From Bacteroidota bacterium (lineage in GTDB: Bacteria > Bacteroidota > Ignavibacteria > Ch128b), in the NCBI GenBank assembly GCA_018828505.1, contig JAHJVF010000135.1, positions 1 through 34,435 on the forward strand: 34,435 nt of DNA. The letters are read 5' to 3'. The notes below the pieces were generated by a model. The model did no database searches. It was not told the DNA's origin and was given only the letters and a program-made list of their open reading frames with translations. This document shows, piece after piece, positions 13,045 to 15,288 of this stretch (position 1 is the stretch's first letter; every line of letters starts with the position of its first letter). The position numbers and the translations under genes were made by a program.

Positions 13045-13084
13045 CCAGCCCGCCTTGTTGTTCTGACGTAGATTGGCAGGGAGG
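13045..13084 (+). repeat. Related ~40-bp palindromic repeat, copy D, at the 5' edge of the second transposase remnant
   Basis: ccagcccgccttgttgttctgacgtagattggcagggagg has CAGCCCGCC and GGCAGGGAGG arms, and shares gttctgacgt with the reverse complement of copy A. Confidence 0.5.
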
Positions 13085-14047
13085 ATACGGGAAAAATATT
13101 ATATAAGAATTACACCAGGTCGTCTTTGTGATATGGTAAATGAAGTAGCAACTCATACAAAAGGTAGTAAACAGATAAAAGAAGAGCACCACCCCAATTG
13201 GGAAGGATATTTAATCGTCGATGAAAAATACATAAACGTCAAAGGTAAGAAGCAAGTTAGTCTGATAGCTGTAGATTCAAGTTGCGATATTGTACACGAG
13301 GAATTCTTAGCATATCAAGAGCAGACAAGATATGATGAATTTTTCGTCCGCCGTGGCGGACATAAAGTCTCACCTTAAATATCCATTTAGGTCAGTTATA
13401 ACAGATTTAGATTTTATGTTAGAAAAGTCAATAAAAACAGTACTTAACAGCGATATTCCTCATCAGAAATGTTTGAAACACATGATAGAGAACGTAAAGA
13501 GGATACTAAATTATTCTAGCACGAAAGCCCAATACAACAAGCTGATGCGGATGCATCCCTTTGGGAAAAAACATGTCGAAAATAGAATTGTTATCAGTCA
13601 GGAAAAAGCAGAGCAATTAGAAGCCATAGAAGATAAATATTTTGTATAGGAGAACTTTTGTCTGGTATAAGAGAGATTTTGTATTGTACAAATAGAGCTG
13701 AATCAAATCTCAAGTTAAAACAGTTAAGAAATAGATTTGGTCCGAAATATTCGAAGGTGTTCAATTTGATTGATCATCATTTGACCGGGTTACTTAATCA
13801 TCAAAAGGATAACTTGATCCCAAAGACAAATAACCTGGCAGAAAATAAAAATTGACAGATTAAAAGAAGATTTAAAACAATTGAAGCATTTCAATCTAAA
13901 CAAAATGCTAGTAACTACTTAAGGTTCAAGCCATATACTGATTATCGTAAAAATAGAAAGTCACGCAATGGTAAATCTCTTTTAGAAATCTGTGGTGTAG
14001 TTCTAAGAAAAGAAGATCGGTTAAAAAATTCTGTAAATGTATATTAA
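13073..14047 (+). pseudogene. Degenerate DDE transposase, family not assigned (MULE/IS256-like resemblance)
   Basis: Consecutive ORFs 13073..13378, 13332..13649 and 13658..13855, then QIKRRFKTIEAFQSKQNASNYLRFKPYTDYRKNRKSRNGKSLLEICGV. VDEKYINVKGKKQVSLIAVD, ITDLD and KTNNLAENKN fit a split DDE transposase. Confidence 0.72.
13346..13361. repeat. Palindrome GTCCGCCGTGGCGGAC at a frame change in the transposase remnant
   Basis: 7-bp perfect arms. The reading frame switches between the 13073 and 13332 ORFs here. Confidence 0.7.
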
Positions 14048-14238: not shown

Positions 14239-15288
14239 ATGAGATTTGAAGTCAATAATTCATCACTGGGGCAGTTTAAAACTCTATTAATTAATGATAA
14301 TGAAACCAGAAGTAAAATTGAGATTGCTTTAAGAGGTGCAATGCTTCTTAGCTACTATGTAAAGCTCGATCAAAATATTTTTAACATCATTGATGGTTTT
14401 CAATCTCAAGATGAATTGGGATCGGGTACAGGTGCACGATGCTGGATCATGGCGCCGTTTCCCAATCGAATTGAGAATGGTATATATAAATTTCTCGGGA
14501 AAACTTACCAGCTACGCCCGATCGCTCCAAGAACTCAGGTAATTCATGGTTTTACATCAAATGTCGATTTCAAAATTATTGATACGGAATCTAATGATGA
14601 AGAAATTATAATTACTTTTTATACAAATATTCTTCGACCAGGAGTATTTGAGGGTTATCCATTTAGTGTCGATGTTTACATTAAATACATTTTTAACGGA
14701 TTAAAATTAAATATTGAAGTAATAGCTAAAAATGTTGGAAATGAACCGGCTCCGTTCGGAACCGGGTGGCATCCATATTTCAGAACCTCCGAGAAAGGGT
14801 CTGCCCACCATGTCCAGCTGCACGAGGCAGGCGGGATTGATCATCTAATCCTTACGCTCAACGCGAATCAATTAATACTTACTGATAAGAATTTAATACC
14901 GCTCAAAGATGAAAAGGCTTATGGTAAACTAAACGATTATTTAGACTTTGATTTTAGAGATACGAGAACAATTGAAGAACGTGTGATAAAAAATAGAATA
15001 CTCGATAATTGTTTTGCTGATCTGAAAGTAGATGAAAATGGAATTTCTTCAACAACATTATATGATCCCACCAATGATCTGCAAATAAAAATTTTTCAGA
15101 AAGGAGGCCTTACACTAGTTTTTTCCGGTGACACACTTTCTGAAAGACAAAGAAAATCAATTGCAATTGAACCTGTGCAATTTATGACGAATGCATTTAA
15201 CCGTCCGGAATTAGAAGAAAAGATTAGAATCAATCCTGGAAAAGAATCAAAATTCGAATTTGGAATTGAAGTTTATTGTAACAAATAA
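14239..15288 (+). CDS. Aldose 1-epimerase family protein (GalM-like)
   Basis: 349 aa: MAPFPNRIENGIYKFLGKTYQL, IHGF, EPAPFGTGWHPYF, SIAIEPVQFMTNAFNRPE. Confidence 0.87.
   Translation: MRFEVNNSSLGQFKTLLINDNETRSKIEIALRGAMLLSYYVKLDQNIFNIIDGFQSQDELGSGTGARCWIMAPFPNRIENGIYKFLGKTYQLRPIAPRTQVIHGFTSNVDFKIIDTESNDEEIIITFYTNILRPGVFEGYPFSVDVYIKYIFNGLKLNIEVIAKNVGNEPAPFGTGWHPYFRTSEKGSAHHVQLHEAGGIDHLILTLNANQLILTDKNLIPLKDEKAYGKLNDYLDFDFRDTRTIEERVIKNRILDNCFADLKVDENGISSTTLYDPTNDLQIKIFQKGGLTLVFSGDTLSERQRKSIAIEPVQFMTNAFNRPELEEKIRINPGKESKFEFGIEVYCNK
14800..14835 (+). repeat. 36-bp palindromic repeat, copy B, in-frame inside the intact aldose 1-epimerase gene (SAHHVQLHEAGG)
   Basis: tctgcccaccatgtccagctgcacgaggcaggcggg. 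Same length and arms as copy A (382-417). It starts on codon 188 of the 349-aa ORF and spans exactly 12 codons. Confidence 0.75.

Follow-up and report, generated by a model that had tools for sequence, protein, structure and literature searches.

The 36-bp sequence at positions 14800 to 14835 of the window (the whole 34,435-nucleotide stretch of DNA analysed) very probably belongs, as one of its old copies, to a family of miniature mobile palindromes that are non-autonomous, can be translated where they lie in genes and are tolerated there in loops. It sits on the forward strand, in frame, within an aldose 1-epimerase gene of the galactose mutarotase family (14239 to 15288, forward strand), and encodes residues 188-199, SAHHVQLHEAGG, of the 349-residue product. 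More tentatively, we propose that the copy represents an undescribed, phylum-crossing family of coding palindromes with a fixed length of 36 bp and crossed, mutually exclusive stems, served by a precise, duplication-free mover that would add 12-residue peptides to proteins.

The epimerase insert and other copies in the window

The DNA of the insert is TCTGCCCACCATGTCCAGCTGCACGAGGCAGGCGGG. It starts at base 1 of codon 188 in the open reading frame 14239-15288 and occupies exactly 12 codons; sequence, coordinates and frame are all as the original prediction gave them. The open reading frame matches Pfam model Aldose_epim (PF01263) with E=2.2e-35, and a Foldseek search with the modelled structure returns galactose mutarotases at TM 0.76-0.80. 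The expectation that removing the 36 bp would leave a continuous GalM-family segment was borne out by alignment: residues 188-199 are absent from all 12 homologs compared (30-51% identical, same class), both sides align well, and TSEKG[SAHHVQLHEAGG]IDHLIL here stands against TTDNGIEHLIL or TSDEGVDHLVL in the homologs. An AlphaFold2 model built on the homolog alignment has a mean pLDDT of 89.3 and a pTM of 0.89. Residues 188-197, the sole segment with pLDDT below 50, fall between the strand that bears the GWHPYF motif, whose His178 is invariant, and the next strand; the structural check suggested at the outset returned a disordered loop. In the model the epimerase appears otherwise ordinary, its mutarotase fold intact and the insert a flexible, disordered loop.

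With TCTGCCCACC instead of CCTGCCCGCC as its left arm, a difference of two substitutions, the epimerase copy looks older and drifting; its peptide has S for P at residue 188 and H for R at 190 relative to the consensus PAR. It makes a poor hairpin in single-strand DNA folding (z +0.97). Directly downstream, ATTGA at 14836-14840 (forward strand) shows the target signature found at most copies, G at +4 and A at +5.

A second intact copy, CCTGCCCGCC ACGTCAGAACTAAT GAGGCAGGCGGG, lies at 382-417 on the forward strand. This is the partner to which the original prediction ascribed the same length and arms; it is real and the length agrees, while the left arms differ by the two substitutions in the epimerase copy. 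A third, CCTGCCCGCC CTGTTGAGATGAGA GAGGCAGGCGGG, lies at 945-980 on the reverse strand, and neither of these two is crossed by a long open reading frame. A decayed copy, CCAGCCCGCCTTGTTGTTCTGACGTAGATTGGCAGG, to which no strand is assigned, is found at 13045-13080 and shares its interior with a better-kept copy in locus L188. Next to the decayed copy (at 13073-13649) and next to the one at 382-417 (at 300-660) lie fragments resembling broken transposase genes. A different hairpin repeat (AAAACCACCTTCTTAGAAGGTGGTT type, 85% alike) occurs at 710-742 and 880-912, just upstream of the copy at 945-980.

Abundance and architecture of the element

The genome of this bacterium (G000) is a metagenome assembly of 3.9 Mb in 539 contigs. 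The exact right arm GAGGCAGGCGGG occurs in it 216 times (112+104), against 0+0 for a backwards control; the strict two-arm element occurs 145 times (76+69) and the generic two-arm element 187 times (97+90; backwards control 0), all counts taking related copies as separate. The repeat is real and far from chance, and the recurrence elsewhere in the genome that had been proposed as a check amounts to about 200 copies. The same-genus genome G001 and the family genomes have no matches. Within the class, 26 of 391 genomes contain the element, with 1 to 36 matches each besides the 187 in G000 and none for the control. A scan of GTDB genomes found at least 46 stretches with the element, mostly from MAGs of Ignavibacteria and Bacteroidetes; among the matches listed are single records named Omnitrophota, Parcubacteria, Desulfobacteraceae and Proteobacteria, singletons for which bin contamination is possible. 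A viral collection scanned for the element gave 0 matches. Other MAGs have in-frame copies in a methionine synthase activation domain (MetH; PARLIEFREAGG, L119:7562-7597) and in an ATP-grasp protein (PARHASQGEAGG, L083, BMS3Abin15). A type I restriction specificity subunit (L092, SW.3.66) also has an in-frame copy. At seven loci of X2_MaxBin.003 (L077, L078, L093, L107, L108, L113 and L118), a 36-mer with the centre ATGTTTGGTCTAAA forms part of a longer repeat whose flanks are conserved; the amplified unit there seems to have been larger than the 36-mer.

The consensus is CCxGCCyGCC-N14-GAGGCx'GGCy'GG, where the 14-bp centre varies freely, in subfamilies. Among 116 distinct strict copies the length is 36 in 109, 37 in five and 35 in two. 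The arm letters x and x' are complementary in 115 of the 116 copies and y and y' in 110; for the nested pairings x:y' and y:x' the counts are only 3 and 4. When the 36-bp frame is ignored and hexamer pairs of the type CCxGCC/GGCy'GG are considered on their own, 230 of 238 are complementary at an outer length of 32, against 8 of 131 at length 36 and 3 of 112 at length 28. These pairing counts are inflated by the kinship of the copies, yet no fewer than five combinations of letters (TC, TA, CA, CT, AC) fit the rule. Since the arm letters pair in crossed order, each element consists of two 6-bp stems that overlap, one shifted by 4 nt against the other and each with a 20-nt loop, and both stems cannot be fully formed together. 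The description of the repeat as palindromic stands, with crossed and overlapping stems in place of a simple hairpin. The second stem forms in single-strand DNA folding of two main-type copies (z -2.0 and -2.7); no base-pairing within the 14-nt centre was found in any register tried. The crossed complementarity of the arms hints that recognition of the element involves an unusual step.

A second family, 30 bp long and so likewise a multiple of three in length, has the form CCxGCC-N18-GGCy'GG, often with CATAGCTAT in its centre; 26 hexamer pairs of length 30 were listed, and one such element lies at L207:719-750.

Insertion sites and the fate of copies in genes

The element is mobile within G000, where filled and empty sites show that a unit of fixed size is inserted or lost exactly, without target-site duplication and at preferred targets. 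In at least 10 of the 17 within-genome comparisons listed, the filled site differs from the empty one by exactly 36 or 37 bp, with nothing duplicated or lost. Several pairs have flanks that are 95-100% identical, for example cccgacaag|tcgggacaag and gtaatctg|cgggagaa (both 100%) and gttcatt|atggac (98%). Two IS200-type transposase (Y1_Tnp) genes of about 86% nucleotide identity carry reciprocal insertions: one shows an exact 36-bp filled/empty site, ATGGCAATT|TCAGAT, and the other has gained in frame a 30-bp relative, CCTGCC-N18-GGCGGG, which adds PANSTQFYGG. No target-site duplication occurs in the filled/empty pairs, and immediate direct repeats of at least 3 nt flank 1 of 116 copies. Elements nested in elements were seen at L019, L028, L193, L205 and L216, including a 30-mer within a 36-mer.

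Among 105 flanks, G occupies position +4 in 84 (background 22%, P ~1e-35); position +5 is A in 55, position -1 is A or G in 83, and position -4 holds a pyrimidine in 78. The insertion preference is thus NNN|NNNG, a signature not seen in pooled loci of other genomes. A palindromic or hairpin-tip target was considered and rejected: the flanks show no covariation, just column preferences at +4 and -4.

For copies in genes, we called a site genic where joining its flanks gives an open reading frame no shorter than 150 aa that extends 20 aa to either side. Among the 147 sites in stretches fetched around copies (copies on the last contigs were left out), 24 fall within long open reading frames and 123 outside. 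Given a coding share of about 81% in the window, copies are strongly under-represented in genes, and most genic insertions are, this suggests, purged or avoided. The reading frame stays open through the element at 21 of the 24 genic sites and is broken at three, weakly above the roughly 69% that we estimate from frame-wise stop rates. One common frame, giving PARHxxxxEAGG-like peptides, is used by 12 of the 21 open copies. In the genes of the window, GA dinucleotides in the phase of a GAN codon make up 30% of sense and antisense GA sites; the frame bias is partly explained by the target signature, which favours this phase, and the remaining excess has P=0.009. Stops in frame +1 occur in 5 of 88 distinct copies against 21.7 expected. 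After loose clustering of interiors they occur in 3 of 25 clusters (P=0.17), and because the effect fades in this way we do not use stop avoidance as proof of coding selection.

Individual genes show the insertion with varying clarity. In PGI/PMI an exact 12-residue insertion is seen on alignment with 19 other loci, with a nucleotide-level empty site (77% identical) in the same-genus genome G001. ActB of alternative complex III has an exact 12-residue insertion facing a 12-column gap in 6lod_B, and homolog alignment places another in a Y1_Tnp (IS200-type) transposase. For an alpha-amylase and a NUDIX protein, where alignments are loose, the 12 residues are deduced from spacing; DnaQ has two copies at the point where its homolog alignment breaks, and PriA has a net gain of 9 residues, not 12. 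Judged against outgroup sequences, the direction in PGI and in the epimerase is gain. The phrase coding mobile palindrome, under which the repeat had been predicted, thus fits as to mobility, with exact empty sites and in-frame insertions elsewhere, and fits a minority of sites as to coding.

Genic copies are translatable because the element is 12 codons long and usually free of stops in the frame favoured by the signature (GAN codons, Asp/Glu). In the mechanism we propose, the family would enter NNN|NNNG(A) sites in units of exactly 36 bp and leave the target unduplicated, and genic copies would survive where the extra peptide, typically PARHxxxxEAGG, sits in a tolerant loop; in the epimerase this would be the loop between two strands. 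The peptide is presumably translated, and the epimerase probably still works.

Candidate movers and relation to known systems

An enzyme supplied in trans and acting on the hairpin arms would move the element; the likeliest candidate is a transposase, of the single-strand HUH/Y1 type or another. A HUH enzyme of the single-strand kind is plausible, since insertion occurs without duplication and Y1_Tnp is present in every element-rich genome tested: G000 has 16 matches, and 9 of 9 other such genomes have them. None of the Y1_Tnp loci inspected, 16 in G000 and 30 in the 9 other element-rich genomes (among the matches listed), is bracketed by the element. An autonomous parent lying between neighbouring copies was also sought and rejected: besides overlapping loci, only a response-regulator pair (35% identity) recurs.

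That the repeat is instead a REP family moved by a RAYT, a Y1 transposase of the same genome, is the most serious competing account, and we consider it unlikely. Its size, high copy number and GC-rich palindromic form are those of a REP, Y1_Tnp matches accompany it as just described, and insertion without target-site duplication fits IS200/IS605 chemistry. However, the element lacks a GTAG or CGTC terminus, and the Y1 genes inspected are accompanied by other palindromes, which on C133 are of the GCCCTGAAAGGGC type. Where a 36-mer does lie near a Y1 gene, in genomes G081 and G257 of two other genera, it is itself inserted into the REP-like repeats of the locus, at the same point in each (ggttgaaacc|gacgcc and ggttaaaacc|gacggc; L259:1277-1312 and L260:1067-1103), with empty repeats nearby. 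On these grounds the RAYT candidates inspected were rejected as the cognate mobiliser. At L207:1926-2550 a Y1_Tnp gene is bracketed by GCCCTGAAAGGGC palindromes, the classical REP/RAYT layout of another family.

The other alternatives concern the protein. Selection of the peptide as an adaptive loop that improves the enzyme, beyond mere tolerance, could be read from the two amino-acid changes by which the epimerase peptide has drifted or adapted away from PAR; it is improbable, with the same type of peptide in unrelated proteins, a modelled loop that is disordered and so few sites in long open reading frames. Still less probable is that the element is transcribed and then absent from the protein, through ribosome bypassing, as known for the byp elements of yeast mitochondria, or through removal from the RNA. 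Fixed-length, GC-rich palindromes within genes and the three broken reading frames are what such a process would allow, but bypassing needs neither a length that is a multiple of three, as in 109 of 116 strict copies, nor the scarcity of +1 stops, nor 21 of 24 frames kept open. Almost no weight attaches to the idea that the 12 residues go back to the ancestor and have disappeared from the sampled homologs, or that the likeness to the repeat is coincidental, against 12 of 12 homologs without the residues and a backwards control of 0 versus 187. An old, presumably translated copy of a mobile palindrome remains our preferred reading.

Most palindromes known to code in frame come from Rickettsia, with a few from elsewhere, and their mode of insertion is obscure. 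With about 200 copies, many exact filled/empty pairs, reciprocal insertions in paralogs and a target signature in a single genome, the insertion mechanism and the cost at the protein level become directly testable here. The element also steadily supplies enzymes of environmental bacteria with insertions of 10-12 residues, a pattern to be borne in mind in annotation and structure modelling.

The palindromic elements of Rickettsia (RPE; Ogata et al. 2000), which live in the genomes of obligate intracellular bacteria, are described as having long stem-loops and lengths of 105-146 or up to 150 bp (PMC2229807, PMC10969869), and similar coding palindromes are cited for Wolbachia and Methanocaldococcus jannaschii (PMC2996958). 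Like them, the element is a dispersed palindrome found both in frame in unrelated protein genes, where its peptide is apparently tolerated, and between genes. It differs in its length, 36 bp in 109 of 116 copies and outside the RPE range of about 105-150 bp, in its fixed arms, variable 14-bp centre and crossed, double-register pairing, in its many exact empty sites within one genome, and in its hosts, environmental MAGs of several groups. Intragenic GTAG/CGTC REPs, which include RPE-4, RPE-6 and REPs in genes of O. terrae (PMC3733652), share with it a short (20-40 bp), GC-rich, high-copy palindrome, mostly intergenic with a minority in open reading frames. The element, in contrast, ends in CCxG and Cy'GG with no GTAG/CGTC tag in its flanks, has no cognate RAYT among the Y1_Tnp loci inspected, and inserts exactly and without duplication at NNN|NNNG, as the filled/empty pairs show. 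Lack of target-site duplication sets it apart from MITEs. Set against IS200/IS605-type (HUH) transposition, which inserts without duplication beside a fixed short motif, the element shows duplication-free insertion and a preference for G at +4, yet the motif is a loose one to which no enzyme could be linked. The small dispersed repeats (SDR) of cyanobacteria, mobile and likewise only tens of bp long, resemble it in size. REPINs, pairs of inverted REPs associated with RAYTs (PMC3116915, where the cyanobacterial repeats are also named), are likewise miniature palindromes, non-autonomous and multiplied within one genome, whereas the element occurs as single 36-bp units without such a RAYT gene. 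The label RPE-like under which it was predicted holds for behaviour and not for membership: in an unrelated lineage, the element behaves like RPE and intragenic REPs but is not one of them, judged by length for the former and by GTAG/CGTC tag, duplication and RAYT for the latter. A literature search found no paper reporting the repeat by its sequence. Palindromes that code for protein have been described before; in the literature searched, this family, the logic of its arms and its documented empty sites appear to be new.
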